From positions 930,001 through 994,000 of the forward strand of contig BQWY01000001.1 of NCBI GenBank assembly GCA_036984305.1: a DNA stretch of 64,000 bases. The letters run 5' to 3'. Source of the DNA: Nitrospira sp. Its GTDB lineage: Bacteria; Nitrospirota; Nitrospiria; Nitrospirales; Nitrospiraceae. Within the stretch, counting starts at the first letter, position 1. Every line of letters starts with the position of its first letter. The notes under the pieces are model-generated. The model was not told the origin of the DNA. It ran no database searches and saw nothing but the letters and a program-made list of their open reading frames with translations. Shown here one piece after another: positions 5,835 to 53,717 of this stretch. Position numbers and translations under genes: made by a program.

Positions 5835-5918
5835 TACTAATAAGGGGGCCAGCGGCGAAAAGTAGCCCTGCTTGCTGCTGCCCTTCGCGCTGCACCGCTC
5901 AGTCCCACTATTCACGAT

Positions 5919-7442: not shown

Positions 7443-7633
7443 ACGTCACGCGCCTTCCAGAACGACGCGAGCGCCCATTTGACCCGATCCCGCGGCCCAC
7501 CAGTCCGTCCGAGGACGGTAGCGGACCGTCTCGACCCGATACCGGGTCGCCTGACAAGGATAGTCTCTTGAAGCGCATGCGCAAAGTGGATCCAAAACAA
7601 GCGGAACGGTACCGGCAACGGACAGGACAGTGA
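7439..7633 (+). CDS. ubact: UBact: Pup-like prokaryotic ubiquitin-like modifier
   Basis: A 64-residue, Pro/Arg/Asp-rich, probably disordered protein ending DPKQAERYRQRTGQ. Small size, disorder and a C-terminal Gly-Gln are features of Pup-type modifiers; the RTGQ ending and overall sequence match UBact, the Pup-like protein reported from Nitrospirae and some other Gram-negative phyla. The Gln terminus implies that Dop must deamidate it to Glu before PafA can ligate it to lysines. The ATG at 7439 overlaps the dop stop and is preceded by AAAGGAG at 7424-7430. An in-frame upstream GTG or ATG-like start would add nine residues inside dop and is less likely. Lysines at residues about 47, 52 and 56 could carry chains. 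Confidence 0.92.
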   Translation: MNVTRLPERRERPFDPIPRPTSPSEDGSGPSRPDTGSPDKDSLLKRMRKVDPKQAERYRQRTGQ

Positions 7634-7724
7634 AAGGCAAAGAGTAGCCAGGTAACGGCAGAGGAGTGCGCGTTGACCATCCGGTTGCCCTTTACTGTCT
7701 ACTGATCATGAAGTGGAGCGACTT

Positions 7725-8501
7725 ATGGGAATGCAGGGCGATTTCTTCCAGCTCCTGAAGGAGAAGGGCTACCAATTGACGGCGCCCGCTACGCCTCCGG
7801 CCGTCGAGGAGTTACCCAAGGCCACGACCATCCTGGCCATGAAGTACCGCGACGGCGTGCTTGTGGCCGGTGATCGGAGGGCGACCGCCGGCAACATGGT
7901 GATGTACGATCGCACCGATAAGGTGCTGGAAATCGACCGCCACTGTGTCATGGCAATCGCCGGGGTGCCAGCCACTGCCTATGAGATGGTGCGGGTGCTG
8001 GAACATTCGTTTAAGTATTACCGCCGAACTCAGTTGCAAGACTTGAGTTTCGATGGAAAGCTGCGGGCGGTTTCGAAGCTGCTGAAGGACAATGTCGCGG
8101 CTGCCTTGTCCGGGACCGGTGCGGTAGCGCCGGTATTTGCTGGGTATGATCATGACGCGGGAACTGCCAAGATTTATTTTTACGACATATTGGGGGCAGA
8201 ATTTGAAGGTGTGGAATATGCCGTTTCGGGATCAGGTTCGCCGACGATCCGCGGGACGTTGCATTACCTGAACCTCTGGGGCGAACGGCCATTGTGCGAA
8301 TTGACCGGTACCCAGGCAACGATGCAAGCGCTTCGACTTCTGACGTGTGCGGCTGAATTTGATTCGGCTACCGGGGGGGTCAATCGCGACGCGAACCTGT
8401 ATCCCGTCGTCAAGCTCATTACGCAACGAGGGATCGAAACGGTACCGGATATTCAGCTGCAGCAGTCGTTTCAGGAACATGTCGTTCGGAGGCTCGCATG
8501 A
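7725..8501 (+). CDS. prcB: 20S proteasome beta subunit (catalytic)
   Basis: A 258-residue N-terminal-nucleophile hydrolase forming the catalytic inner rings of the bacterial 20S proteasome. A propeptide of about 33 residues ends at EELPKA, and self-cleavage would expose Thr34 of the TTILAMKY segment as the nucleophile. Conserved AGDRRAT and a Lys in RTDKVLEI follow at proteasome-beta positions, and SGSGSP lies late in the fold. The ATG at 7725 has GGAG seven bases upstream; an in-frame GTG at 7713 is a weaker alternative. It is separated from prcA by an unusually long 229-bp gap. Confidence 0.93.
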   Translation: MGMQGDFFQLLKEKGYQLTAPATPPAVEELPKATTILAMKYRDGVLVAGDRRATAGNMVMYDRTDKVLEIDRHCVMAIAGVPATAYEMVRVLEHSFKYYRRTQLQDLSFDGKLRAVSKLLKDNVAAALSGTGAVAPVFAGYDHDAGTAKIYFYDILGAEFEGVEYAVSGSGSPTIRGTLHYLNLWGERPLCELTGTQATMQALRLLTCAAEFDSATGGVNRDANLYPVVKLITQRGIETVPDIQLQQSFQEHVVRRLA

Positions 8502-8730
8502 TGGGCAGGTGTTCGTTCAAGACCGAATGTGGAGACTCCGAGAACCCAACGAATCAAGAGATGCAATACTCATGTAGCCTGGCTCGATTCCCGGGGCGGT
8601 GCACTTTCTGGTGGGAAATGGGGAGTAAGTAACGGGCTGTGGATCGGAGCACTGGTACCGCCGTCGAGTGGCGGTGCGATGCGACCACGAGACCACGACC
8701 CGTTTTTAACCGGTGCTGAGGTGGTGCGTT

Positions 8731-9540
8731 ATGTATGAGGAACCATATCGTTGGGTCGAGGCCGTGGGGAACCGACGGCAGTATCTCGACGAACAGTTCC
8801 GTCAGGGGAGCCCTGTGGTCGCGCTCTCATTCGGTGAGGGTGTGTTGTTCATGACAGTGAGCAAGGGCACCCCCAAGCTGTACGAAATCTACGATCGAAT
8901 CGGTCTTGGGGGAATGGGCCACCCGGCCGATTTGGAGAAACTCAGATTTTCACTCCTTGAAATGGCGCATCTCGAGGGCTTCAATCGTTCTCCTTCTGAT
9001 GTCACCGGTTCCCGGCTGATGAAATATGGGCTCGCGCCGGCCATCAAACAGGCCTTTGAAGAAATCTATAAGGCGCCCTACATCGTAAAGATGCTCCTGG
9101 CGGAACTGGGAAGTAAGTCCGGACGGGATGCGTTCCTGACGGTGAATTACGATGGAACGTTCGAGGAGGTCGGCGGAGGGGCGGTATTGGCCGCTACTCC
9201 GGCCATTCAGCGGGAGATGATGGATGTCTTGTCGACACAGGGATCGCTTGCCGACGCGGAACTTTCCCAAGCATTCGAAGCCGCTCTACTGCTGTGGGCG
9301 GTTGGGTCCCTTCGGCAGCGGCGAGAAGACCATATCGGGGTTTCGGAGAGTCCCGAGGCGGGAGCAGCCTCTTCCGCTTTCGACCGGCGGACGCTGCTCG
9401 CTCACCTTCGAGAAGTATTGAACGATCGCACGAACGTCGAATGTGCCGTGCTCGAGCGAAAGCTTCCGGGCTCGTCCAAGTATAGGTCCGTGAAGCCTGA
9501 TGAAGCCGCATCTCTGTTGCCGTTGGATCTGAAAGATTGA
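8731..9540 (+). CDS. prcA: 20S proteasome alpha subunit
   Basis: A 269-residue alpha subunit that forms the outer gating rings of the core particle and docks the ARC ATPase. It shows the bacterial PrcA pattern, with VVALSFGEGVLFM near the N-terminus, YDRIGLGGMG, and a VTGSRL segment. The N-terminal extension that gates the pore is short (about 25 residues). The chosen ATG at 8731 begins MYEEPYRW; an in-frame TTG/ATG-type start 18 bases earlier has no better binding site. It lacks a catalytic Thr, as expected. It lies between prcB and pafA, on the same strand. Confidence 0.9.
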   Translation: MYEEPYRWVEAVGNRRQYLDEQFRQGSPVVALSFGEGVLFMTVSKGTPKLYEIYDRIGLGGMGHPADLEKLRFSLLEMAHLEGFNRSPSDVTGSRLMKYGLAPAIKQAFEEIYKAPYIVKMLLAELGSKSGRDAFLTVNYDGTFEEVGGGAVLAATPAIQREMMDVLSTQGSLADAELSQAFEAALLLWAVGSLRQRREDHIGVSESPEAGAASSAFDRRTLLAHLREVLNDRTNVECAVLERKLPGSSKYRSVKPDEAASLLPLDLKD

Positions 9541-9607
9541 GGTTGCAGTCGCATCCTCAATGATTGTCGCGGCCACGCCACCTCATACGTAGCCTGAATT
9601 TCGATCC

Positions 9608-11098
9608 ATGTTAAACAAGATCTTCGGCTTAGAAACAGAGTATGGGCTGTTAATCAACGAAGAGCACCCAGAGCACTCGCCTACCTGGTATGCCCATCGT
9701 ATTCGCGACCACCTCTTCCACAGCCAGCGCCGCGGCGTATTGGATGTGCATCATCGTGGTCATGACGAACCGCCGGGAAACGGGGGCTTTCTGACTAATG
9801 CGGGCCGTGTCTACCTCGACATGGGCCACATTGAATACGCTTCTCCCGAGTGTGGGACACTCGCCGACCTGGTGGCGTCGGATCGAGCCGGCGATCAACT
9901 AATTCAGGAGGTCATTCAGGAACTGGGTTTGACGGATTCCGTTTCACTGATCAAGAACAATATCGATCACGAGACGGATGCAACATTTGGTTGCCATGAA
10001 AACTATCTTGTGTCTCGTCGATTTCCATTTTCACGCCGTGGTTTAGGCAAACTGCTCCCCTTTCTCGTGACTCGCCAAATCTTCACAGGCGCGGGTCGGA
10101 TCGGAGCGGCGGCGGTACAGGACATCTGGGTGCAGCGTGGACAGATTCTGATGCCGCGTGCCGTCGGACGCGATCCATTTGGGCACATTGACGTACCCTT
10201 TCAGCTGTCTCAGCGCGCCGATCATATCGTCAATGATTTCTTCGAATGGGTGCAGGGGAACCGTGCAATCGTCAATACGCGCGACGAGCCGTTGTCGGAT
10301 CCCAATGAATTTCGCCGAATTCATCTGCTCGTTGGTGACACGAATGTGGCAGAGTACGCGACGGCGCTCAAAATCGGCACAACGGCGCTTGTACTGCAGT
10401 TGATTGAGAACAATCAAGCACCCTCCGAGCTAGAATTGTCCGATCCAGTCGAAGTGTTGCAGGAACTTTCCCAGGATCAGGATCGGGCCTGGATTGTCAC
10501 GTTGGCATCGGGACGAAGTATATCCGCCATCGACATTCAAGAGCAGTATCTGGCTGCGGCGGTGAAACATTGCCGCGGGCAGGATGAAGAAACGGATTGG
10601 GTGTTGGAAGCTTGGGACGGTGTGTTGCAGGATCTCCGTGGAGAGTACACCAAGTTGGTCGGTCGTATCGATTGGGCGAGTAAGCTCTGGTTGTTCGAGA
10701 CCTTCCGTGAGGCTGAACGATGCGGATGGGACGATCCGATGCTCAAGAGTCTCGACCTGGAATACCACAATTTACACCGAGATCGAGGGCTCTTTTGGGG
10801 CCTCCTGGAGGAGGGGAAGGCACCCCGGTTCACGACGGAGCAGGCTATCAGATTGGCGATGGATCGGCCACCGAGAGATACCCGCGCGTTCGGTCGCGCA
10901 GAGGTGGTGCGACATCTTCTGGCATGCGGACCTCCGGCGGTCGGTCCAGATGATCGCCCGGTACGCGAGCGCATCGTCCCATCCTATGTCATTAACTGGT
11001 CGGCTTTTCAACTGCGTGGTCGAGAACCTTTTCTCATGTCCAACCCGTTTAAAACGTATGTGCAGGAAGTTCGAGCTCATCTTGCCAAAGGAGATTGA
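9608..11098 (+). CDS. pafA: PafA-type ligase for the Pup-like modifier
   Basis: A 496-residue carboxylate-amine ligase homologous to Dop but with PafA-type features. It would activate the deamidated C-terminal Glu of the modifier with ATP and attach it to substrate lysines. The N-terminal FGLETEYG supplies the Glu/ATP-site motif; GRVYLDMGHIEYASPEC corresponds to the PafA segment that in actinobacteria reads YLDVGSHPEYAT. The Dop loop is absent. A segment at about residues 35-60 (RGVLDVHHRGHDEPPGNGG) is His-rich and longer than in Mycobacterium PafA. The family is certain; ligase rather than depupylase is inferred from the motifs and from the better Dop candidate upstream. Confidence 0.88.
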   Translation: MLNKIFGLETEYGLLINEEHPEHSPTWYAHRIRDHLFHSQRRGVLDVHHRGHDEPPGNGGFLTNAGRVYLDMGHIEYASPECGTLADLVASDRAGDQLIQEVIQELGLTDSVSLIKNNIDHETDATFGCHENYLVSRRFPFSRRGLGKLLPFLVTRQIFTGAGRIGAAAVQDIWVQRGQILMPRAVGRDPFGHIDVPFQLSQRADHIVNDFFEWVQGNRAIVNTRDEPLSDPNEFRRIHLLVGDTNVAEYATALKIGTTALVLQLIENNQAPSELELSDPVEVLQELSQDQDRAWIVTLASGRSISAIDIQEQYLAAAVKHCRGQDEETDWVLEAWDGVLQDLRGEYTKLVGRIDWASKLWLFETFREAERCGWDDPMLKSLDLEYHNLHRDRGLFWGLLEEGKAPRFTTEQAIRLAMDRPPRDTRAFGRAEVVRHLLACGPPAVGPDDRPVRERIVPSYVINWSAFQLRGREPFLMSNPFKTYVQEVRAHLAKGD

Positions 11099-41633: not shown

Positions 41634-42432
41634 GAACCTCTCACGTTCGGCCGGTGCACTGGTCTCCGTTACCGACCAGCCCTGCATCGCCTCTCCAACC
41701 AGTTTAATACCACGGCTACGGTCGCGCCGCGCCCACGAGGTCCGATCCTTGCCCCCTAGGTATTAAATCCATCCTGTGCTATTCTCCAGACCTGCGGCAC
41801 CCCGGTAACGATTCCTACACAGGGTCACAACGTTCCTGCGGATATTTCATATCGACGACTTACCGCAGTGACAGTTTGAAGGCAGGCCACGAAACGAAGA
41901 AGAATAGTCCGATGGGAGCTTCCGGCGCGTGTTTGGCCTCCAGTTCTGTTTGGTCCGAGCCTCTGGTACACCTGCCGTAGTGCGAATCGCCGGTGAGGAG
42001 CGCCCGGATCAGAACCTGCGGTGACCTGACAGTGGATGTGGCGGTGGAAATCGTCCATTGATGCATTGGCAATCATCGTTTCCGATTCCATGCACGCGCC
42101 TGTATCCTTCCCTGCCTTCGAGTTATCGAATCAGATACGCACGCCTGGTATTCCGTCACGCTCAGAACGATAGAATCTGGGAAAGAGTGGATTTCTAATT
42201 AGGTGTAATCAGGCAAGCCGCTTGCAATCGTCGGTGAGGTCATACTCGATCATCCCCATCTCCGTGTCAGATGTGCGGTGTGGATGGTCACGAGACGGGT
42301 CTCGTGACATTCGGCTCCGAATGCTAGAGGACGCCCATTCGTTCTGGTCGCGGTCGACCTGGGGTCGAAGCGGTATCGTTATCTGACCCTGACACCGTGT
42401 ATAGCAACAGCCTGCATATTAGGGGGCATACC
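41634..42432. other. Long non-coding gap upstream of the cytochrome cluster
   Basis: About 800 bp with no credible gene on either strand; the open frames are short, overlapping and without family resemblance. It precedes a five-gene cytochrome cluster and probably contains its promoter, but I could not identify one. No tRNA, riboswitch or clear repeat was recognised. Confidence 0.5.
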
Positions 42433-44871
42433 ATGAGAGTCCTACGCTCAAGTATCTTCGGTATCGGACTTGGACTGGTGGTGGCGGTTTGGTTTGCCGG
42501 TCCTCAACTCATCACCGCGCTGGCTGCATCGCCGGGCGACACCCCGACGACCTTTCAGTACGGCGTTGGAAATCTCAGCGATGCTGAGCGCGTCGGCGCG
42601 GCCATATGGTTCAATGCCACTGCCGGCAATGCGCGGTTCTTCACCTACGTCTACCCGCAACGGTTGGGCGTCACGGTGGATTGGTATCGGATCCTGGCGA
42701 GCGAGCAGCGAGAGCAGCGGTTTCGTCGATGGGGATTGATGAATGACCCCGATTGCTGTCGGCCCGGCGATCCAAGCTGTCCGGCGAAGAGCTATGAAGA
42801 GACCTACGGGTTCGACTATTGCCCCGGAGACGACGAGTTGCTGAAGTTCGTCGGCAAGGATGGCTATCGAGATCCGGCCTGCAATCTCAAAGACGTGGCG
42901 ATTGCCCCAGACGATCCGCATGGGCCGAAGGAGCAGCGGCAATCGCCGTGCAATCTCGATTTCGGGACGTCGACCGGCGCGCTGGGGTTGCGCAAGTTCC
43001 CCAATCCGAGGTTCGACAAGGCTAAATGGCTGGACATCAACAAGGGCCGCCTCGACAATTGGGACGGCTACACGGCCAAGGTGATCCCGCGGAAAGATCG
43101 CGAGGCGCCGGCCAAGAGCCACCTGTTCGACGCCTCGATCGAGCCGCCATTCCGGATTGGGATGTCGTGCGGGGCCTGTCACATCGCCTTCAACCCCCTG
43201 CGCCCCCCAAAAGACCCGGTTCATCCTAAGTGGGAAAACCTCTCGGGGACCGTCGGGAATCAGTACGCGCGTTTTGCGCAGATTCTCGGATCGGGCATGC
43301 CGCTCAATACGATCGAGTATCAGATATTCGCGCATGCGCGGCCGGGCACCGTGGATACATCAGCGATTCCGAACGACCAGGTCAACAATGCCGGGACGAT
43401 GAACGCCATCATCAATCTGGCAAAGCGTCCGACCTTCGAAGAGGATATCATCAAGTGGCGGAAGACCAAGCAATGTCCGACCGGCGCAGACGAACGTACT
43501 TGCTGGTGCGAACCGGGGCGCTTCAACAAATGCTGGGAGCGCGGTCGAAAGAAGGAAATGGTCCACCATATCCTCAAGGGTGGGGAAGACAGCATCGGAG
43601 TCCTCGAGGCGATTCAGCGCGTGTACTTCAACATTGGGAGCTGTTCCGAGGAGGGATGGGTCAACCATCAGGTCGACATGCGGCAGCTCGACCCGACGCG
43701 CCGCGGGTATGGACAGACGCCGTTCGATATCGGGCAAGTGCGACGGGACTGCGCACAGTTCCGGGCCATCGAAGACCGATTGGGTGAGGTGTTGGCGTTC
43801 TTGATGACAGGCGCTCCGGCCGATCTCTACAAAGCCCGCGGGCTGAAGGATAACCGCGAGCTGGTGAAGCAATTGGACAACGAGTTCGGCAAAGGGGCGG
43901 TCGAACGCGGACGCATGGTGTTTGCCCAGAGCTGCGCCCGTTGTCACTCGAGTCAGACGCCGCCGTTCGAGACCAAGGATTTCCGCGCGGTTTCTACAAG
44001 GCCTGAAGACAAGGGCATGCGCATCGATTGGTTGGGGAACGACCAGGTCGTCCCGGTCACTGAGATCGGTACCAATTACTCTCGTGCGCTGCATTCCAAC
44101 CACATGAAAGGTCGTGTGTGGGAAGAGTACGGATCGGAGTCGTTGCGGGCCAAGCCCGCCGTCGATTTGAAAGAGCCGTCCGATGGTGGGCGTGGATACT
44201 ATCGCAACATCTCACTGTTGAGCCTCTGGGCCTACGCGCCGTTCATGCACAACAACGGGGTCGGGCCAGAGCTATGCGGCGGTGAAATCGACGAGCATTA
44301 TCACTCCCCCTATGTGGGCCAGGACCTGAAGCCGTTGGCGGACCCGCCGTCCTGTTGGGAGTTCGATCCCAGTGTCGAGGGGCGCTTTACGCTGTACAAG
44401 GCCTCGATGGAGGCATTGCTCAATCCCGATCGGCGCATTCCCAAGATTACCCGCTTCAACACCGAGGTCACGATCCGGCTCCTCCCCAAGGTCGTCGGGG
44501 ACAAGGACGATGAGCAATTCGTGCAGACGGCCGTCACCTTCCCGGCCGACACCCCGCCCGCAAGGGTGGGAAATTTCAGATACAAGGAACTGGTACAGGA
44601 TTTCGTCGTGGGGAAGCGAAATCGAAAGGAACTCGAGGCCAAATACGAGAAGAGGTACGGGGCGGCTCAAGCAGCGAAAGTGGTGGATGCGATCATGCAA
44701 GCCGGCGCCGATATCATCAAGAACGCCGGCAAGACGGTAGAGATCGCCGGATCACTACGGGAGATTTATAGCAACAGCTTGGCGTTGATCGAAAACCAAG
44801 GGCACCGCTTCGGCGAAGACCTCTCCGACCAGGACAAGAAGGCCCTCACGGCATTCCTGGCGACGCTGTGA
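42433..44871 (+). CDS. Large exported diheme c-type cytochrome
   Basis: An 812-residue exported protein with a signal peptide (about 1-33, ending TALAAS) and two c-heme sites, CGACH at residues 246-250 and CARCH at 501-505. The C-terminal half looks like a diheme CcpA/MauG-type cytochrome (SLWAYAPFMHNNGVGP resembles the ...APYLHNGS loop of the family). The protein is unusually rich in non-heme Cys (PDCCRPGDPSC, CWCEPGRFNKC), implying disulfides. The ATG at 42433 (MRVLRSS) is preferred to one 12 codons upstream. It is the first of five co-directional genes. Substrate and partner are unknown; peroxidase, oxygenase or electron-transfer roles are all possible. Confidence 0.8.
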   Translation: MRVLRSSIFGIGLGLVVAVWFAGPQLITALAASPGDTPTTFQYGVGNLSDAERVGAAIWFNATAGNARFFTYVYPQRLGVTVDWYRILASEQREQRFRRWGLMNDPDCCRPGDPSCPAKSYEETYGFDYCPGDDELLKFVGKDGYRDPACNLKDVAIAPDDPHGPKEQRQSPCNLDFGTSTGALGLRKFPNPRFDKAKWLDINKGRLDNWDGYTAKVIPRKDREAPAKSHLFDASIEPPFRIGMSCGACHIAFNPLRPPKDPVHPKWENLSGTVGNQYARFAQILGSGMPLNTIEYQIFAHARPGTVDTSAIPNDQVNNAGTMNAIINLAKRPTFEEDIIKWRKTKQCPTGADERTCWCEPGRFNKCWERGRKKEMVHHILKGGEDSIGVLEAIQRVYFNIGSCSEEGWVNHQVDMRQLDPTRRGYGQTPFDIGQVRRDCAQFRAIEDRLGEVLAFLMTGAPADLYKARGLKDNRELVKQLDNEFGKGAVERGRMVFAQSCARCHSSQTPPFETKDFRAVSTRPEDKGMRIDWLGNDQVVPVTEIGTNYSRALHSNHMKGRVWEEYGSESLRAKPAVDLKEPSDGGRGYYRNISLLSLWAYAPFMHNNGVGPELCGGEIDEHYHSPYVGQDLKPLADPPSCWEFDPSVEGRFTLYKASMEALLNPDRRIPKITRFNTEVTIRLLPKVVGDKDDEQFVQTAVTFPADTPPARVGNFRYKELVQDFVVGKRNRKELEAKYEKRYGAAQAAKVVDAIMQAGADIIKNAGKTVEIAGSLREIYSNSLALIENQGHRFGEDLSDQDKKALTAFLATL

Positions 44872-44902
44872 CGGTGAGCACGCAACCCAAAAGGTGACGA
44901 CC

Positions 44903-45784
44903 ATGATGCCACCATACCGATGGATGTTCGTGCCGATGTTGGCTGGGCTGATCGGCCTGATCGCGTGCACGGGCCGCGAGGATCCACCACCGGTGCCTTA
45001 TGCCAAGGAGGAAGAACGGTACGGCGAGAAAATCGATTTTGCGCGCCTGGAACATGAGCTGCCGCTCACCCAGACTGATCTGATGAAGATCACCCCCGAC
45101 AACCTCAAGGGGGCGACGCAAGAGCAAGTCGATCAAATCTATGTGCGCTTGACGGCCGGCCCGATCCCCGACGGGATTTACGACGGGCAAATGTTCTTCC
45201 CAAAGGGAGCCGGCAATCGATCTCGTCTCGCTGAGATCGCCGGAGGGGGCATCAAGGGCCTTGTGGTGAATTGGAAAGAGGCCAAGGTCGAGCGGTTGGC
45301 GGAGTTCGTGTGGAAGGGCAAGGTCTTCGACCGTGGTCAGCGGGTTCTTAGAAATCGGATTCAGGACCTGGCCGTTCTCAAATTGGTGCTCGGGCCGGAT
45401 AGCCAGAACGTCAAGAAGATCGATGTCGATGGCAGCGATGCGTGGCTGCTGTTTCCCGCAAAGCTGTACTGCGGACAAAGTTTAGTCGATGGACGGCGGG
45501 AGTCGATCATCATCGACTATGCGTTTACGGACGATCTTCCAGGATATCGCGAGATGCCCGATATCTTCGCGAGTCGGGAGGGTCTGGAGATTCGGGACGA
45601 AATCCGGATGGTCAGGCCAGGATTCTATCTGGGGCGCGCATATATGAAGAAGGCCTTTGTGCTGAACTTCACGCTATACAACAAGGATGTCGTAGAAAAT
45701 GAGGGTGCAGCTTTTGTCTCATCCGGTATGGTCAACGAGGACTGCTGGATAGGGCCCCAACGGGTCGCCACGATGAAAAAGTAG
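44903..45784 (+). CDS. Lipoprotein in cytochrome cluster
   Basis: A 293-residue lipoprotein, with a signal peptide and lipobox LIACT placing Cys near residue 18-19. The mature chain starts with a short acidic linker and has no heme motif. PIPDGIYDGQMFFPKGAG and GFYLGRAYMKKAFVLNFTLYN look like beta-rich segments. Family unknown to me. It sits 31 bp after the 812-residue cytochrome and about 40 bp before the diheme lipoprotein. AAAGGTG upstream supports the ATG at 44903. Confidence 0.7.
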   Translation: MMPPYRWMFVPMLAGLIGLIACTGREDPPPVPYAKEEERYGEKIDFARLEHELPLTQTDLMKITPDNLKGATQEQVDQIYVRLTAGPIPDGIYDGQMFFPKGAGNRSRLAEIAGGGIKGLVVNWKEAKVERLAEFVWKGKVFDRGQRVLRNRIQDLAVLKLVLGPDSQNVKKIDVDGSDAWLLFPAKLYCGQSLVDGRRESIIIDYAFTDDLPGYREMPDIFASREGLEIRDEIRMVRPGFYLGRAYMKKAFVLNFTLYNKDVVENEGAAFVSSGMVNEDCWIGPQRVATMKK

Positions 45785-45824
45785 TGCGTGTGCAGCATTC
45801 CCGTCCCTGGGGTGCGGACTTTAC

Positions 45825-48242
45825 ATGGAGAAAAGAGTCGAGAACACTCGTCGCATTCCCATTCACGACGGTGCCACCTTCATGTGCGGCGTGCTTGTCA
45901 CGGTCGGTCTCGTCCTCGGATGCGAACGGCTCGCCTCAGAGCCCACAAGAGCGGCCTCGTCGCGTATGAGCTCCACGCCGTGGATCATCAATCCGGCCGA
46001 TCCTGGCCCGAACGTGCCGACGGTCGGGCGGTCACTGTTCGATCACATCGTCGTCGCACAGACGGGCGGCCCGCCAGGCTACGACGTGCCGTTCCCGCTA
46101 TCGGCCCTCATCGAGAAAATAGAGCGAGTCGGTGGTCTGACGGAGAGTCGTACCGGCCTCAAGCGCCTGCTCATTCCCGTGAACCGCTCGCTTCAGCGGC
46201 GAGCCGCTGCGGGCGATTGGTTCGCCTATCCTCGTGCCGTGGTAGCGGTCGATGGCGAGCCGTCGGCCGAGGCTGGAATTACAGGGCCCAACCTGAAAGA
46301 TCGTCTGTTTCTCGGTTACCATGAGAAGGCGAACGTACTCGAGGTCATCAGTTACAACGAGGCAGCGGGTCGATTCGAGTTCCAGGTCGTGCGGGACTAC
46401 CGCGCAGGTGGCCAACCGACTGTGCGCTACGCGAATCGAGCCCTCTGCACAGCCTGTCACCAAAACCAGAGTCCGATTTTTTCGCGTCCGCTGTGGGAGG
46501 AGACGAACGCCAACGTCAAGGTAGCGGCGATGCTGGCCGGGGAACGACGCGATTTTTACGGATTTCCGACCCACGTCGGCGTCGGCGTCCCGCAGGCTTT
46601 TGATGAGGCGACCGACCGCGCGAATCTCTTATCAGTGGCCCAGTGGCTTTGGCGTGAAGGCTGCGAAGGGCCGCTTGAGCTAACGGATGCAATCGGATGC
46701 CGAGCCGATCTTGCCCGACTCATGTTGAGCTATGAGCTAGCTGGGCGCCGTCTCTTCGCCAAGGGCATGCCACGGCAGGCGAGGCAGGTGGGGTCACGCC
46801 TCGCCAAGGACTGGCGCGCTCGGTGGCCCACTGGGGTCGCCCTTCCCAATCCCGATATCCCCAATCGAGATCCATTTACCGTTGTGCCAGTGTCATCATT
46901 CCCTGGGCTCAGCCCAGTCTACACGGGCGTGCTCAGAGGGCGAGAAGAGCGCTCGTCGGGGTATGGGCGATACGAGCCGACAATGCTGCGCGAGCCGCTT
47001 GAGTGGTGGTCGCCGCCCGAAACCGCCGGAGAGGTCGAATGGGCGGTCGCTGGACTCTCTCAATTTCTGACTCTGAATGACGTCACTCGATTGGACGCAC
47101 TGCTTGCCAAGACGGCACAGGAGCAACGGCTGCCGCTGCGTGAGTACGAGGCACCCTGCCAGATAGACGGAGCGATTCGTCCCGGCGACAACCAGCTTCG
47201 CGTGCAATGTAGGGCAGGCAATGGCACCAAATCGTCCTCCGGCCGAGAGGACCTCATGGATGATCAAGAGGTGATAGAACTTGAGGCCATGGTACGGATC
47301 CGAGACGGGCATGTGACGGACGGAGAGGTCGAAGAGCTACGAATACGCGCTCGAGGTCTCGATGAGCATTTGACGAAGCTCCGCGTCGTCAGTGGCCTAC
47401 CGACGACCATATCCTCCACTTCGTCGCTTCGACTCGAATTAGCGATCCAGTCAGATCGAGTGCCCGGAGGCCGGCAACATGCCAGAGTTGGCACAGGGGA
47501 TGCGATCAAAGAGCTCCGTCTCGAATGGTCACGACACAATGACGCAAGGCAGGGTCGGCCGGGTCGACTCCTCATCGCCATCCGGACCGATGGGACACTG
47601 CTCGACTCAGCGTTGGCTCGAATGGTGGAGGCGACGCGGCAGGGCACTTCCGCCGTCTTTGCAAACGCTCCCTTTCGGCGTGTGAGTTTTCTGAACGCCT
47701 TGGACGCGGCGTTGCACGCGGACACCGTTCGGCGGTGCTGTCTTGATGACCGTCATCTTCCACCGCCGATGGACGACGTTGATGGCAGTGCGCACAAGAT
47801 GGACACTGACACGACGATGGCGTTTACCGAGGGGCCGATCGGGCTCTTCCACCGATATTGTGCCGCCTGTCATCACGGCGAGGATGCCTTCCCGCCGAAT
47901 TTCCTCCACGGGTCTGCAGGAAGCGTGGAGCAGAACCTTCGCCACTGTGCGGAACGTATCGCCGTGCGGCTGGCCATGTGGGGTGTGGGCGCGTCGTATC
48001 GTCAGGAGGCGCCTATGCCGCCGGCGACCGAATTGCTGCGCCATCGAGTCGATCTCGGAACGTGGACAGAACAGAACGATTACCGGCTTCTGGTCCAGTA
48101 TGCCCAGCAATGGATCAGCAAGCCACCGGAATCCGGGCGCAAACTGGACGAGTTGCTTCATCGAGACTACGACGCACTCCCGGCATGCATGCCCGAGCGA
48201 GCAACCAACACCCGGGTCGCCGCGGGCGCGGCATCCGATTAA
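45825..48242 (+). CDS. Diheme c-type cytochrome lipoprotein
   Basis: An 805-residue protein with two c-heme sites, CTACH at residues 208-212 and CAACH at 679-683, about 470 residues apart. A hydrophobic segment with lipobox LVLGC (Cys about residue 33) predicts a lipoprotein, probably outer-membrane attached, although the n-region is long (an in-frame ATG at 45882 is an alternative start). The segment LCTACHQNQSPIFSRPLWEETNANV is distinctive; the long intervening region (about 320-640) has no domain I recognise. It lies between the cluster lipoprotein and the two tandem diheme cytochromes. Confidence 0.75.
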   Translation: MEKRVENTRRIPIHDGATFMCGVLVTVGLVLGCERLASEPTRAASSRMSSTPWIINPADPGPNVPTVGRSLFDHIVVAQTGGPPGYDVPFPLSALIEKIERVGGLTESRTGLKRLLIPVNRSLQRRAAAGDWFAYPRAVVAVDGEPSAEAGITGPNLKDRLFLGYHEKANVLEVISYNEAAGRFEFQVVRDYRAGGQPTVRYANRALCTACHQNQSPIFSRPLWEETNANVKVAAMLAGERRDFYGFPTHVGVGVPQAFDEATDRANLLSVAQWLWREGCEGPLELTDAIGCRADLARLMLSYELAGRRLFAKGMPRQARQVGSRLAKDWRARWPTGVALPNPDIPNRDPFTVVPVSSFPGLSPVYTGVLRGREERSSGYGRYEPTMLREPLEWWSPPETAGEVEWAVAGLSQFLTLNDVTRLDALLAKTAQEQRLPLREYEAPCQIDGAIRPGDNQLRVQCRAGNGTKSSSGREDLMDDQEVIELEAMVRIRDGHVTDGEVEELRIRARGLDEHLTKLRVVSGLPTTISSTSSLRLELAIQSDRVPGGRQHARVGTGDAIKELRLEWSRHNDARQGRPGRLLIAIRTDGTLLDSALARMVEATRQGTSAVFANAPFRRVSFLNALDAALHADTVRRCCLDDRHLPPPMDDVDGSAHKMDTDTTMAFTEGPIGLFHRYCAACHHGEDAFPPNFLHGSAGSVEQNLRHCAERIAVRLAMWGVGASYRQEAPMPPATELLRHRVDLGTWTEQNDYRLLVQYAQQWISKPPESGRKLDELLHRDYDALPACMPERATNTRVAAGAASD

Positions 48243-48279
48243 ACGAGGGCGCTCGGTCGTAGGAACCGAAGACTCTAGC

Positions 48280-49806
48280 ATGAACAGGTCAGTCTCATGC
48301 GGCAGATTCTGGAACGGCGTCGCGATCGTCTCGCTTGCGGGAGTGCTGATCGTAGGTGTGTCGCTGGCCTCCCGTTTTCTGCAGGACGAGCCCGTCCGCT
48401 ACGCCGATGATGAAGACCACTTCAAGTACGGCTCACTCGGAGGCGAGCGGGAGGCCGGGCTCCCATATTGGGTCTGGCGCGCCCTGCCGATGGTGTGTGC
48501 CGACCATCTTCCTCGTGGGGAGCGAGTTCCAGGGCAAGAATACAAGGCGCTGGGCTTTGTCTATGAGGGCGACCGAGATCTACCGATCGGAGTATCGAAA
48601 CGTCGGCACTTGGGGATCGACCGCGTCTTCTTGAATTGCGCAGCCTGTCACGCGGGCACGGTGAGAGCGACTCAGTCGAGTCCGCCCCGCATTTATACCG
48701 GCATGCCGGCTCATCGGCTCGATCTCATGGCGTTCGAGCGGTTCCTCTTCGATTGTGCAGCGGATGCGCGATTTACACCGGACCTCATCGTTGCCGCTAT
48801 CCAGGAAGTTGGCGGCCGACTCAGTCTGTTGGATGAATTCGTGGTTTACCCCATGGCGGTGCACCTGATGCGAGCCCGTCTCACGATGCTCCATCGGCGC
48901 TTTGCCTTCATGTTGGATCACGGACCGGAACGCGACTGGGGGCCTGGGCGCGTCGATACGTTTGCGTTTGCCAAGGCCCTTTTGAATTTTCGAATGGATC
49001 AGGCCTCGGAGCGTGATTCGATCGGTGTGGTGGATTTCCCGTCGATTTGGCTCCAGGAACCGCGCAAGGGTATGCAGCTTCATTGGGACGGCAACAATAC
49101 GAGCGTCGAGGAGCGCAATCGCAGCGCCGCATTCGGCGCCGGGGCGACGCCGCCGACGCTCGACCGCGTCGCCATAAAGCGCGTGGAGAATTGGCTGCTC
49201 ATGCATGAACCGCCGGCCTATCCGTTTGGGATCGACAAGACTCTCGCCGCCAAAGGGGCGAAGGTATATGGGACATACTGTGCCGACTGCCATGGAGCGG
49301 GCGGGCGCGACTTCTCGGGTACGTCCGTGGGCGCAGTGGTGCCCATTGATGCCATCAAGACAGATCGCCGTCGTCTTGATTCCTACACCTACGAGTTGGC
49401 GGTAAATCAAAACCTCCTCTATGCGGGAACGGACGATCCAAATGAACGGTTCCGGCATTTTCGAAAGACCAACGGGTACGCCAACATGCCGCTCGACGGC
49501 ATTTGGCTCCGCGCCCCGTACTTGCATAATGGCTCGGTACCGACCTTATGGGACTTGCTGCAACCGCGCGCCGAACGGCCGTCACGATTCTATCGGGGTA
49601 ATGACGTCTACGACCAACGGAAGGTCGGCTTTCTCTCGGATGTCGCCGTGGAAGGCGGCCGGCCGTTTTTTCTGTTCAACACGGCCGACTACAAGGATCG
49701 GTCGTTGCCCGGCAATGGCCGGGAGGGACATGAGGGCCCCGAGTACGGGACGGCGCTTCCGGATGATGAGAAGTGGGCCTTGGTGGAGTACCTCAAGACA
49801 TTTTGA
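48280..49806 (+). CDS. Membrane-anchored diheme c-type cytochrome, tandem paralogue 1
   Basis: A 508-residue protein with one N-terminal membrane segment (about residues 12-30) and two c-heme sites, CAACH at 120-124 and CADCH at 334-338. HFKYGSLGGEREAGLPYWVW near the start and GIWLRAPYLHNGSVPTLWDLL near the end are shared with the next gene. The fold resembles the CcpA/MauG/RoxA-like diheme group, but which oxidised substrate it uses is unknown. The frame is open 179 codons upstream, overlapping the preceding gene; ATG at 48280 starts the signal-anchor. Confidence 0.8.
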   Translation: MNRSVSCGRFWNGVAIVSLAGVLIVGVSLASRFLQDEPVRYADDEDHFKYGSLGGEREAGLPYWVWRALPMVCADHLPRGERVPGQEYKALGFVYEGDRDLPIGVSKRRHLGIDRVFLNCAACHAGTVRATQSSPPRIYTGMPAHRLDLMAFERFLFDCAADARFTPDLIVAAIQEVGGRLSLLDEFVVYPMAVHLMRARLTMLHRRFAFMLDHGPERDWGPGRVDTFAFAKALLNFRMDQASERDSIGVVDFPSIWLQEPRKGMQLHWDGNNTSVEERNRSAAFGAGATPPTLDRVAIKRVENWLLMHEPPAYPFGIDKTLAAKGAKVYGTYCADCHGAGGRDFSGTSVGAVVPIDAIKTDRRRLDSYTYELAVNQNLLYAGTDDPNERFRHFRKTNGYANMPLDGIWLRAPYLHNGSVPTLWDLLQPRAERPSRFYRGNDVYDQRKVGFLSDVAVEGGRPFFLFNTADYKDRSLPGNGREGHEGPEYGTALPDDEKWALVEYLKTF

Positions 49807-49841
49807 TCCCATAGGGCTCGGCAAGCGGGAGGGGACGGAGC

Positions 49842-51362
49842 ATGCGCAATGACGCGGCCCCCAAGAAAAGCAAACTCAAGACGGTCATCCTAGTGATCCT
49901 CGCGCTCGGCCTGGTGGCCGCCTACGTTGGTTGGGACAAATTTTTTCGCGACGAAGGCATTCCGGAATGGATTACCAAGGATCCGGACATGCGCTTCAAG
50001 TACGGCTCAATCGGCGCCGAGCACGAAGCCGGGATCCCTTACTGGATCTGGTACGTCATCCCGCGCGTCTTCCCGGACAAGTTCCCTGGCCCCGGCGGAT
50101 ACACGTCGTTGGGCGTACTCTGGGAAGAGGGGCAGGAAATGCCGATCGGCTTCACCAAACGGACGATCGGATTTCCGCGTGTCGCGAACACCTGTGCGTC
50201 GTGTCACACGTCGAGCTATCGCGCCAAACCCAGCGACAAGCCGACCTTCCTCATCACCGGGCCTAACCATACGCTCGATCTTGAGGCGTTTTTCCGGCTG
50301 TTAGTCGATGTCGCCAAGGATCCGCGGTTCAATCCGGATTTGCTCATGAGCGAAATCCGTCTGGTGGTGGACCTGAGCTGGCTCGACAAGTTGATGTATC
50401 GCTATGTGCTGATACCGATCACCAAGAAGCGGTTGCTCGAGCGTGAAGAACAGTTTGCGTGGATCTATCGAAAGGACTTTCCGCCATGGGGCCGTGGGCG
50501 AGACGATGCGATGAACCTGACGAAATATTTCATGATCAAGGAGCCGATGGACGACAGCATCGGTCCGACGGACATGCCCTCGATCTGGAACCTGCAGAAA
50601 TATAAAGAGGACAAGGGCCACTTCATGAACCTGGCGGGCGATAGCCACAACGCGCGCTCGGTCATCATGGACTCGGCGCTCGGAGTGATCGGGGCGCGGC
50701 CGAAAAGCCAGTCGGAATTTCTGGATCACATCGCGTGGTTCGAGGGCTATCTTGGCAAGTACCCGTCACCCCGATATCCATTTCCGATCGATCAGGCGAA
50801 GGCTTCCGCCGGTAAGGCGGTGTTCGAGCAGAGCTGCGCCCGTTGCCATTCGAGCGACCGAACGGGCACCCGTGTGCCGGTGGCAGAAGTGGGGACCGAT
50901 CGCGAGCGGCTGGACACCTGGAGCAAGGAGGCGGCAGTCAAAGCGAACCAGGTGGTTCGTGATTTCGGCCTTGAGCGGAAGGGGCTGGTCGAAGAGCCAC
51001 TGATCGGCTACGTCGCGTCATTCTTGGACGGCATTTGGCTCCGCGCGCCGTACCTGCATAATGGCTCGGTGCCGACGCTGCGCGATTTGCTCGAACCGGT
51101 CGAGAAGCGGCCGAAAGTGTTCTATCGTGGTTACGACGTCTACAACCCGGTCAAAGTCGGGTTCGTCACGAGTAAAGCTGAGGCGGATCAAATCGGCCTG
51201 TCCAATAACCTGGAGCGCCAACGACTTCGCGAAGACGTTGAGCGCATCGGTACACGGTACGACGTCACGGAACGCGCGAGCGGCAACCACGGCCATTTGT
51301 TCGGGATAGATCTCTCGGACGAGGAGAAAGCTCGACTTGTGGAGTATCTAAAGACACTCTAA
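49842..51362 (+). CDS. Membrane-anchored diheme c-type cytochrome, tandem paralogue 2
   Basis: A 506-residue protein, paralogue of the previous one. N-terminal basic residues are followed by one membrane segment (about 11-28). Heme sites are CASCH at 118-122 and CARCH at 332-336, almost the same positions as in the upstream paralogue. RFKYGSIGAEHEAGIPYWIW and GIWLRAPYLHNGSVPTLRDLL are the shared signatures, and RPKVFYRGYDVYNPVKVGF the shared C-terminal part. Only 35 bp separate it from the upstream copy. This completes the five-gene cytochrome cluster. Confidence 0.8.
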   Translation: MRNDAAPKKSKLKTVILVILALGLVAAYVGWDKFFRDEGIPEWITKDPDMRFKYGSIGAEHEAGIPYWIWYVIPRVFPDKFPGPGGYTSLGVLWEEGQEMPIGFTKRTIGFPRVANTCASCHTSSYRAKPSDKPTFLITGPNHTLDLEAFFRLLVDVAKDPRFNPDLLMSEIRLVVDLSWLDKLMYRYVLIPITKKRLLEREEQFAWIYRKDFPPWGRGRDDAMNLTKYFMIKEPMDDSIGPTDMPSIWNLQKYKEDKGHFMNLAGDSHNARSVIMDSALGVIGARPKSQSEFLDHIAWFEGYLGKYPSPRYPFPIDQAKASAGKAVFEQSCARCHSSDRTGTRVPVAEVGTDRERLDTWSKEAAVKANQVVRDFGLERKGLVEEPLIGYVASFLDGIWLRAPYLHNGSVPTLRDLLEPVEKRPKVFYRGYDVYNPVKVGFVTSKAEADQIGLSNNLERQRLREDVERIGTRYDVTERASGNHGHLFGIDLSDEEKARLVEYLKTL

Positions 51363-51526
51363 GCGTTGCCGATCTGAAAATAAGCACCTAGCCTGATTCC
51401 TCACACCCGTCCTCGATAGGTTCGTTTCTCATCTTCCAAGCCAATGGAGCTCAAGATCATGGCCCCCCATTCCGAGAAGAAGGAGAGGGGGTGTGCCGCC
51501 CTCAAAGGACTCATGGAGGAGACCTG

Positions 51527-52708
51527 GTGAAGAAATTGCTGTTTGTCGACGATGAGCAGTGGGTACTGGACTTTCTTCGGATGTCTCTGCGGACTCTTGC
51601 CAATGAATGGCAGATGGAGTACGTGCTCAGCGCCGAAGAGGGGTTGAGGCTCTTGGCGGAATCGATTTATGACGTGGTCCTGGCCGATATTCACCTGACC
51701 GGGATGAGTGGCATCCAGCTGCTGCACGAGGTCAAGAAAAGGTATCCTCAAACCGTTCGGATTGCTTTCTCGGGCGCCGCCGGGCAGGACTCGGTGGGGC
51801 ATGCCCTCAAGGTGGCCCATCAGGTGCTCCCGAAGCCATTGACACCCGGCATGTTGAGGGCCTCGCTGACGCGCGCTTGCGCTCTTCGTGATCAGGTCAC
51901 GAACGACTCGGTCGAGCGGCTGGTCAGCGGCATCCGTGACCTCCCCACGATTCCTACCTTGTATGAAGAGCTACTGGGTGTTCTGGAGTCTCAGGATTCA
52001 TCGGCTGAGCGGGTCGCCAACGTGATCGCCAGAGATCCCGGCATGACAGCGAATCTGTTGCGTGTAGCCAATTCAGTCTATTTCAATCTGCGTAACTCGA
52101 TTACGAGTCCGACACAGGCGGTGGCGCTCTTGGGCGTGGAAAACGTCAAATCCATGGTCCTCGGCTTCAAGGTCGTCCACGACGTGAAGCGCTCCTCGGG
52201 GAATCAATCGGAGGTCCAGGAGGTGTGGCGGCATGGGTTCGCCGTGGCCACGCATGCGCGCACCATTGCGTCCATGGAGGACGTCGGCAGTGTCGTGATC
52301 GAGAATGCATTCCTTGCAGGCCTCCTGCATGACATCGGCCGCCTGGTACTCCAGACGAATTTGCCCAAGGAATACGCGGCAGTGGCGGCGCTAACCAAGG
52401 AAAAGGGCGTGTCCGTGTCGCAGGCCGAGCGAGACGTCTTTGGCACGACGCATGCCCAGGTTGGCGCCTATCTTCTCGGCAAGTGGGGGCTTCGCGACTG
52501 TATCGTTGAAGCGGTAGCTTTTCATCATGAGCCGATGCTCTGCCTTCAGCCGGGATTCTCGGTCCTTGCGGCCATTCATGTTGCGAACGCATGGGATCAA
52601 GAAGCGACCACCTCCTACTCCGATCCTCCTGCCCTCGATCGCGTCTATATCGAACACGCGGGGCTCATCTCGCAATTGCCACGGTGGCGCGCGGGGTTGG
52701 CAGCTTAG
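51527..52708 (+). CDS. Response regulator with HDOD domain
   Basis: A 393-residue protein with a receiver domain (about residues 1-120) and an HDOD domain (about 135-350). The receiver has the acidic pair DDE, the phospho-acceptor Asp in VVLADIHLTGMSG, and the Lys in VLPKPLTPG. The HDOD domain keeps AGLLHDIGRLVL, an HD-like motif, and FHHEP. HDOD response regulators are signalling proteins with unclear output. GGAGGAG at about 51511-51518 supports the GTG at 51527. It starts about 165 bp after the cytochrome cluster and shares its direction; a functional link is only a suggestion. Confidence 0.85.
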   Translation: MKKLLFVDDEQWVLDFLRMSLRTLANEWQMEYVLSAEEGLRLLAESIYDVVLADIHLTGMSGIQLLHEVKKRYPQTVRIAFSGAAGQDSVGHALKVAHQVLPKPLTPGMLRASLTRACALRDQVTNDSVERLVSGIRDLPTIPTLYEELLGVLESQDSSAERVANVIARDPGMTANLLRVANSVYFNLRNSITSPTQAVALLGVENVKSMVLGFKVVHDVKRSSGNQSEVQEVWRHGFAVATHARTIASMEDVGSVVIENAFLAGLLHDIGRLVLQTNLPKEYAAVAALTKEKGVSVSQAERDVFGTTHAQVGAYLLGKWGLRDCIVEAVAFHHEPMLCLQPGFSVLAAIHVANAWDQEATTSYSDPPALDRVYIEHAGLISQLPRWRAGLAA

Positions 52709-53070: not shown

Positions 53071-53464
53071 GGAGATGGTCGGGTGGTTGCCGGTCGGCAC
53101 AAGCCGGCTGGAGGAAAGTCCGGACTCCCAGGGTAGGGTGCTGGGTAACGCCCAGGCGGAGCGATCCGACACAAGCGCCACAGAGAACAGACCGCCGATG
53201 GCTTGCGTATGCGAGCTCAGGCAAGGGTGAAACGGTGGGGTAAGAGCCCACCGCGGAGGTGGCGACATCTCCGGCACGGCAAGCGTCGCCCGGAGCAAGA
53301 TCAAATAGGGGGACGATCGCGCCTCGAACGCGACTAGGCTGGCCCGGCCGAGGTCCTCGGGTAGGTCGCTCGAGCGGCGCGGTAACGCGCCGCCTAGAGA
53401 AATGATCACCCTCGCCCGGGTGAGAAGCCCAGGCGGGACAGAATCCGGCTTATAGACCGTCTCC
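53071..53464 (+). ncRNA. rnpB: RNase P RNA (rnpB), bacterial type A
   Basis: The catalytic RNA that trims tRNA 5' leaders. The 5' GGAGATGGTC (53071-53080) pairs with GACCGTCTCC (53455-53464) to form the P1 helix, giving a gene of about 394 nt. Universal elements are visible: GAGGAAAGTCCGGACTCC (near 53110), ACAGAGAACAGACCGCC, GGTAAGAGCCCACCGC, the conserved AGAGAAATGATCACC near 53396-53409, and ACAGAATCCGGCTTATAGACC at the 3' end. The 3' end overlaps the glutaredoxin-like gene on the opposite strand. Confidence 0.95.
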
Positions 53465-53717
53465 ACCGCGCTTTTCTGCTTAAGCGCTCGATCTGTCGCC
53501 GTAACTCGTTTTCGCTGACCTTTCCGCGACAAGCTTCCATTCCTTCGACCAAGACGACCGGAATGGATTCCCCATATCTGTGTTGCCAGTCTGGACGTGT
53601 GTCGACATCCTGTTTATCGATGAAGAGGTCCAGGTCTCCTTGCAGGCGGCGGGCCATTCTCTCCACCACGGAGCACAGATGGCAATCTGAGCGGGACAAG
53701 ATTGTGACACGTGTCAT
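53406..53717 (-). CDS. Glutaredoxin-like thioredoxin-fold protein
   Basis: A 103-residue protein of the glutaredoxin-like (DUF836) group. The redox motif CHLC lies in LSRSDCHLCSVVERMARRL near residue 10, followed by the cis-Pro loop region ESIPVVLVEG. The C-terminus is basic (Arg-rich) and overlaps the 3' 59 bp of rnpB in antisense; translation may end late because of that constraint. The ATG at 53717 is the family start; an upstream ATG adds ten residues. Function is probably thiol-disulfide exchange, substrate unknown. Confidence 0.8.
   Translation of the reverse strand: MTRVTILSRSDCHLCSVVERMARRLQGDLDLFIDKQDVDTRPDWQHRYGESIPVVLVEGMEACRGKVSENELRRQIERLSRKARWRRSISRILSRLGFSPGRG

Follow-up and report, generated by a model that had tools for sequence, protein, structure and literature searches.

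The stretch of DNA analysed here (the window, 64,000 nucleotides) comes from a Nitrospira sp. genome (GenBank assembly GCA_036984305.1, contig BQWY01000001.1, positions 930,001 to 994,000 of the forward strand). Between positions 42433 and 51362 it carries an operon of five co-directional genes, g1 to g5, which we discuss as a candidate system for lipid oxidation in the cell envelope. A first-pass annotation, made from the letters alone, had placed four dihaem proteins and a haem-free lipoprotein in this region, with eight CxxCH haem sites in total. All of these open reading frames (ORFs) are present, and all eight motifs were found, two each in g1, g3, g4 and g5 and none in g2. The genes are separated by only 22-40 bp.

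42433-44871, + strand: g1, 812-residue exported dihaem cytochrome (ORF reading)
44894-45784, + strand: g2, 296-residue haem-free lipoprotein, GTG start
45825-48242, + strand: g3, 805-residue lipoprotein with two CxxCH motifs
48280-49806, + strand: g4, 508-residue membrane-anchored RoxA-like dihaem enzyme (PF21419, NF040606 and RoxA profile match)
49842-51362, + strand: g5, 506-residue membrane-anchored RoxA-like dihaem enzyme, paralogue of g4

All five products are predicted to be extracytoplasmic, because g1 carries a cleavable Sec-type signal, g2 and g3 carry lipoboxes (LIAC25 and LGC33, respectively), and g4 and g5 carry uncleaved N-terminal anchors, as far as these features can be read from sequence.

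g4 and g5, paralogues of the RoxA/FadCcp branch

Both g4 and g5 score above the cut-offs of PF21419 (64.2 and 63.5 bits, cut-off 26.7) and NF040606 (182.9 and 159.5 bits, cut-off 150). Their best solved relative, far ahead of any other, is RoxA (4b2n), with E-values of 5.1e-23 for the g4 profile and 1.5e-20 for the g5 profile. The alignment spans the APYLHNGSVP loop and the C-terminal Gly-His, where H484 of g4 and H485 of g5 are invariant and coincide with the axial His641 of RoxA (GGH641; 22 g4 and 23 g5 sequences). Both haem sites, with their conserved proximal His, are likewise invariant in these alignments.

48637-48651, + strand: g4 haem site 1, CAACH, residues 120-124
49081-49098, + strand: g4 H268-W269-D270-G271-N272-N273, invariant; W269 aligns with RoxA W302 and H268 with RoxA F301
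49279-49293, + strand: g4 haem site 2, CADCH, residues 334-338
49513-49536, + strand: g4 APYLHNGS loop
50193-50207, + strand: g5 haem site 1, CASCH, residues 118-122
50835-50849, + strand: g5 haem site 2, CARCH, residues 332-336
51045-51068, + strand: g5 APYLHNGS loop

Closer comparison with RoxA reveals that the two paralogues differ in their inter-haem region. Trp302 of RoxA forms the bridge between its haems. In g4, this residue is kept, as is RoxA Phe317 (F285 in g4, Phe in 18 of the 22 aligned sequences), whereas RoxA Phe301 is replaced by an invariant His; an invariant Glu278 and Arg279 lie close by. In contrast, g5 has Leu at the place of Phe317 and Trp, Leu or Phe at that of Trp302, with Leu in the window copy. 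The operon context of g4 and g5 also differs from that of RoxA. What g4 and g5 share with RoxA, RoxB and RoxC is the pair of CxxCH motifs, the alignable C-terminal region, the APYxHNGSVP loop and the C-terminal Gly-His. A rubber oxygenase identity was nevertheless rejected, as the best score, 74.4 bits, misses the RoxA, RoxB and RoxC cut-offs of 900-1000 more than tenfold.

The C-terminal loops had originally been likened to CcpA, MauG and RoxA together. The RoxA part of that comparison stands through PF21419, NF040606 and 4b2n; the CcpA/MauG part does not, with PF03150 reaching 13.1 bits in g5 against a cut-off of 25.6 and matching none of the other proteins. The dihaem architecture and a related C-terminal loop are common to CcpA/MauG and g4/g5, but g4 and g5 are larger and carry the RoxA-type C-terminal His ligand. 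An MbnH-type identity was also discarded (TIGR04039, 19.1 bits for g5 against 362.85).

The two window enzymes are 38% identical and fall into two sister clades (supports 93/64 for g4 and 99/93 for g5). The relatives also contain high-scoring NF040606 members (about 280-540 bits, haem spacing 225-253), and these group in a clade of their own with full support. As the tree splits g4 from g5 and sets both apart from these higher-scoring members, the duplication predates the spread of the operon. The two proteins, both above the PF21419 and NF040606 cut-offs, are thus deeply diverged paralogues within the RoxA/FadCcp branch of dihaem peroxidases.

Two activities are established in this branch: RoxA cleaves polyisoprene oxidatively, and the tandem pair PA2077/PA2078 of Pseudomonas aeruginosa (FadCcp) consists of a fatty-acid 10S-dioxygenase and a 7,10-diol synthase, the second enzyme protecting against the hydroperoxide made by the first (PMC4496055). 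This pair is the nearest analogue of g4 and g5 that has been studied. Like them, the FadCcp proteins are tandem exported paralogues with two haems; they too belong to the RoxA branch and show the PYxHNGSVP loop as well as the axial His at the C terminus, and here again the equivalent of RoxA Trp302 is kept in one partner and lost in the other. The pairs differ in length (about 625-635 residues for FadCcp, about 507 for g4/g5) and in haem spacing (235-245 versus 214 residues; PA2077/8 values as published, PMC4496055), and for this reason g4 and g5 are not filed as FadCcp. In addition, g4 and g5 are membrane-anchored and sit with g1-g2-g3, a context not reported for the Pseudomonas pair.

Three families without a curated model

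No curated family model matched g1, g2 or g3 at its cut-off. The scores of g1 against PF21419 (9.6 bits) and NF040606 (32.3 bits) both remain under the cut-off; profile comparison relates its C-terminal cytochrome region to g4 (probability 98.5). The haem sites of g1 and g3 and the g1 loop are located as follows.

43168-43182, + strand: g1 haem site 1, CGACH, residues 246-250, invariant in the g1 alignment
43933-43947, + strand: g1 haem site 2, CARCH, residues 501-505; C501, C504 and H505 invariant in the g1 alignment
44236-44256, + strand: g1 loop APFMHNN, counterpart of the RoxA/MauG-type PYxHNG loop
46446-46460, + strand: g3 haem site 1, CTACH, residues 208-212, followed by invariant Q213
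47859-47873, + strand: g3 haem site 2, CAACH, residues 679-683, missing in some relatives

Degeneration of the haem ligands, a concern raised in the first-pass annotation, was not seen. Both CxxCH motifs occur in 86 of 86 g1, 34 of 34 g4 and 31 of 31 g5 homologues, which puts them far from chance, and all 86 g1 homologues also retain the C-terminal Gly-His. The variable site is the second one of g3: site 1 is universal in this family, whereas site 2 depends on lineage, with a single CxxCH in 7 of the 37 homologues longer than 500 residues.

The structure model of g3 is good (predicted local distance difference test, pLDDT, 82.5), and it found no match in the PDB at E 0.001, hence no solved relative; a structural name for g3 was dropped on this ground. 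Profile comparison ties g3 to g1 or g4 only via CxxCH. PF21419 and NF040606 do not match it, and Pfam searches with all members of the g3 family returned only generic cytochrome matches.

The AlphaFold model of g2 (pLDDT 85.7) adopts a barrel. Its best Foldseek match is 4mve (prob 1.00, E 1.8e-3); FABP/CRABP-type barrels, which bind retinoids and fatty acids, i.e. hydrophobic ligands, come next but match weakly (E 0.04-0.2). We therefore describe g2 as a predicted calycin-like beta barrel. Pfam searches with all 36 members of the g2 family gave no credible match.

Distribution, cassette exchange and lipid-linked neighbours

A one-genome-per-species scan with the g1 alignment yielded at least 430 confirmed relatives, of which the best 80 were compared. 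We distinguish form A, in which g1 identity is 37-75% (39 loci whose flanks were long enough), from form B, in which it is 26-31% (23 loci). All 39 form-A loci contain g2, 36 contain g3, and 30 contain g4 and g5 together. Six carry instead a three-gene cassette, c7-c8-c6, which never shares a locus with g4-g5. Form B displays a different composition: a GMC oxidoreductase in 20 of the 23 loci, g3 in none, g4-g5 in 4, c7/c8 in 2 and c6 in 6. One Bdellovibrio locus with a short flank (L094, g1 37%) holds g1, g2, g3 and a GMC oxidoreductase together.

The same gene order, g1-g2-g3-g4-g5, is found again in Nitrospirota, Pseudomonadota, Acidobacteriota and further groups, and carriers include Nitrospira, Candidatus Nitrotoga, Denitromonas, Rhizobium, Granulicella, Bdellovibrio and Methylococcaceae, among others. 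In a survey made without selection on g1, the g2 profile found 16 carriers among 396 Nitrospirota genomes, with g1 adjacent in all 16 and g3 in 15; only a few of 60 sampled relatives carry the genes. Many of the contigs are metagenome-assembled genomes and some names are probably mis-binned, so the phylum count needs caution. A case in point is a locus labelled Candidatus Kuenenia (L062), whose g4 and g5 the tree places close to those of a Rhizobium bin. The module is cross-phylum and not confined to the source genome, and the conservation of its neighbourhood, which the first-pass annotation had proposed to examine, is borne out. On rhizobial plasmids, genes for an NADH:flavin oxidoreductase, a g4-like protein, a 143-residue protein, a g5-like protein, a g1-like protein, a GMC oxidoreductase and a patatin stand in a row; a plasmid search with g3 gave no match.

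In several Nitrospira, c7-c8-c6 occupies the place of g4-g5 while g1-g2-g3 are retained. Directly behind c6 lies a remnant of g5, 49-51 residues long (L047/L153, L051/L160 and L157), indicating that the g4-g5 pair was replaced in place. Another broken piece of g5 is found further downstream in L155.

L047:9570-9716: g5 remnant behind c7-c8-c6, Nitrospira
L051:19419-19565: g5 remnant behind c7-c8-c6, Nitrospira
L157:4519-4665: g5 remnant behind c7-c8-c6, Nitrospira
L160:4506-4652: g5 remnant behind c7-c8-c6, Nitrospira

The cassette proteins offer a first hint at the chemistry involved. c8 is DyP-peroxidase-like, and c6 is catalase-related, its profile finding only allene oxide synthase in the PDB. 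Allene oxide synthase acts on fatty-acid hydroperoxides. For c7 there was neither a PDB relative nor a Pfam match; its family (433 residues, L052:15342-16640 and relatives) shows two HFAR.V.LDD-like repeats and hydrophobic middle stretches, beside a DyP-type peroxidase.

Further hints come from a gene fusion and from neighbours. On plasmid pRetR611c of Rhizobium phaseoli (L162:6024-8852), a c6-like domain (probability 99.3) and a haem peroxidase of the fatty-acid alpha-dioxygenase type (match to fatty-acid alpha-dioxygenase, E 2e-99) form a single fusion protein, and a g4-like dihaem cytochrome adjoins. This arrangement recalls the allene oxide synthase-lipoxygenase fusion of corals, although the oxygenase type differs. 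A Qingshengfaniella plasmid brings together an alpha/beta hydrolase, a related haem peroxidase (38% to that of the L162 fusion) and a g4-like cytochrome (42%) that shares the HWDG motif, and an animal-type haem peroxidase stands beside g1 and a GMC oxidoreductase in one relative from the source organism's own family (G032, L016). Homologues of allene oxide synthase and alpha-dioxygenase (c6, the L162 fusion, L161) are exchange partners or neighbours of g4/g5-like genes, but are homologous to none of the five window proteins. Patatin-like phospholipases occur in 7 of 39 form-A and 5 of 23 form-B loci, with a Tle1-like phospholipase in three of these loci. The highest scores of the form-B GMC oxidoreductases are to choline dehydrogenase, and there is a trace of similarity to cholesterol oxidase.

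The immediate surroundings of the window operon are of another kind. The operon lies among unrelated housekeeping genes: upstream are a HExxH peptidase and a ribonuclease, both as read from the sequence, while the downstream side has acetolactate synthase and a response regulator of the HDOD type, in agreement with the earlier statement that respiratory genes are lacking alongside. The HDOD protein (window 51491-52708, same strand) directly follows g5 and could be unrelated or regulatory. About 760 bp upstream of g1 (window 41634-42396) hold no convincing gene and may form a regulatory region; an Rfam scan around the operon found no match upstream of g1, and promoter and terminator scans gave signals no higher than shuffled expectation. 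The GC fraction of the operon is 0.598, compared with 0.576-0.585 elsewhere, and the composition check gave no indication of recent import. Elsewhere in the window we noted a class A RNase P RNA (284 bits, window 53071-53468, + strand), with spurious ORFs overlapping it on either strand, and a putative prokaryotic proteasome region (window 4053-11098) with an ARC-type ATPase, Dop/PafA-like ligases and proteasome subunits. A search of the whole genome for AmoA gave no hit, and neither did its controls.

A possible role in envelope lipid oxidation

Taken together, the exchange, the fusion and the neighbours favour acyl lipids over plain H2O2 as the target, while each item alone is weak. The view of the first-pass annotation that the substrate could not be inferred now appears too pessimistic, as the exchange of neighbours, the fusion and the repeated presence of phospholipases all indicate fatty-acyl lipids or hydroperoxides derived from them. 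We give about an even chance to the operon encoding an envelope-located lipid-oxidation system, acting in lipid oxygenation or in the turnover of lipid hydroperoxides. In such a system, g4 and g5 would face the periplasm and catalyse two connected reactions, in which an unsaturated acyl chain is oxygenated and the resulting hydroperoxide is then converted. Retaining the inter-haem Trp and the distal Phe of RoxA, g4 might be the oxygenating or oxidant-activating member, and g5, which in the source genome has lost both residues, the hydroperoxide-converting one. The lipoprotein g2 would hold or present the acyl substrate, and the dihaem partners g1 and g3 could exchange electrons with the cytochrome pool. 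The gene content and its conservation, the place of g4 and g5 in the RoxA branch, the in-place replacement and the linkage to phospholipases and fatty-acid dioxygenases in relatives are observed; the lipid substrate, the role of g2, electron transfer by g1 and g3, the allocation of the two steps to g4 and g5 and the nature of the oxidant, which may be O2 or peroxide, are what we infer from the data at hand.

Several observations weigh against this proposal. The window operon itself adjoins no phospholipase, GMC oxidoreductase or lipid enzyme, the lipid evidence coming from relatives, and patatin is missing from most loci. The fold matches of g2 are weak (best E 1.8e-3, others >0.02). Nitrospira is autotrophic, so that it has no evident need to catabolise external lipids. 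Moreover, plain H2O2 chemistry could also account for DyP peroxidases of the c8 type and for catalase-type proteins, and the His at the place of RoxA Phe301, along with Glu278 and Arg279, would render the g4 pocket more polar than that of RoxA, a setting as fitting for a peroxidase as for an oxygenase.

The last two points are equally at home in the main rival explanation, a periplasmic peroxide defence in which g4 and g5 reduce H2O2 or organic peroxides with electrons arriving via g1 and g3, and the lipid enzymes are incidental. The NCBIfam name of both proteins, di-heme-cytochrome C peroxidase, agrees with it, as do the DyP-type peroxidase and the catalase-related protein of the replacing cassette and the invariant His, Glu and Arg near the inter-haem Trp of g4. 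We nevertheless consider it rather unlikely: the 4.35 Mb host genome already has three true CCP_MauG (PF03150) peroxidases, all away from the operon, c6 is closest to allene oxide synthase and has a homologue fused to a fatty-acid dioxygenase, and five subunits, phospholipases and a calycin-like lipoprotein are more than a plain peroxidase needs. It seems less probable again that the system, by analogy with RoxA on polyisoprene, oxidises hydrophobic compounds of other classes (isoprenoids, sterols, hopanoids, aromatic or environmental hydrocarbons). RoxA being the best solved relative and the choline dehydrogenase and cholesterol oxidase matches of the form-B GMC enzymes speak for such substrates, but the scores against RoxA, RoxB and RoxC stay below 75 bits, and the recurrence of patatin, Tle1-like lipases and alpha-dioxygenase-like enzymes indicates acyl lipids.

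Two other explanations fit the data poorly. The dihaem enzymes might oxidise a partner protein, g2 or g3, post-translationally in the manner of MauG or MbnH, as could be read from the weak MbnH match of g5 and from the near-absolute linkage of g1 and g2, expected for an enzyme and its substrate protein. With that match far under the family cut-off, a RoxA-like His as the C-terminal axial residue and no candidate modification site identified in g2, this appears improbable. Least credible of all is that the proteins form a chain carrying electrons to the cell surface or away from it, or serve a side reaction of the nitrogen cycle that would be specific to nitrifiers; the occurrence in Nitrospira, Candidatus Nitrotoga and Denitromonas would suit it, but the Rhizobium, Granulicella, Bdellovibrio and Methylococcaceae carriers have no nitrogen chemistry in common, and beside the operon we saw no gene for a porin, a multihaem conduit or nitrite oxidoreductase.

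Returning to lipid oxidation, a broader version can be envisaged, which we hold somewhat more tentatively, at a little under even chances: a widespread envelope oxylipin machine with a constant core of g1, g2 and either g3 or a GMC oxidoreductase, combined with interchangeable haem-enzyme cassettes that all generate or process fatty-acid hydroperoxides. These cassettes would be the RoxA-type dihaem pair, the DyP peroxidase with the allene-oxide-synthase-like protein, and the animal-type haem dioxygenase. The enzymes themselves come from a known branch, but for the module, its three families without a model and the exchangeable cassettes we found no description in the literature searched, mainly open papers, which supports the initial suggestion of a previously undescribed system.

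The in-place swap within Nitrospira amounts to a natural complementation experiment and renders the function testable. To our knowledge, enzymatic oxygenation of lipids in bacteria is known from few cases, such as the diol synthase of P. aeruginosa and some lipoxygenases. If the proposal is true, lipid oxygenation would be spread over many bacterial groups, including autotrophic nitrifiers, and unrelated types of haem enzyme would solve the same step.

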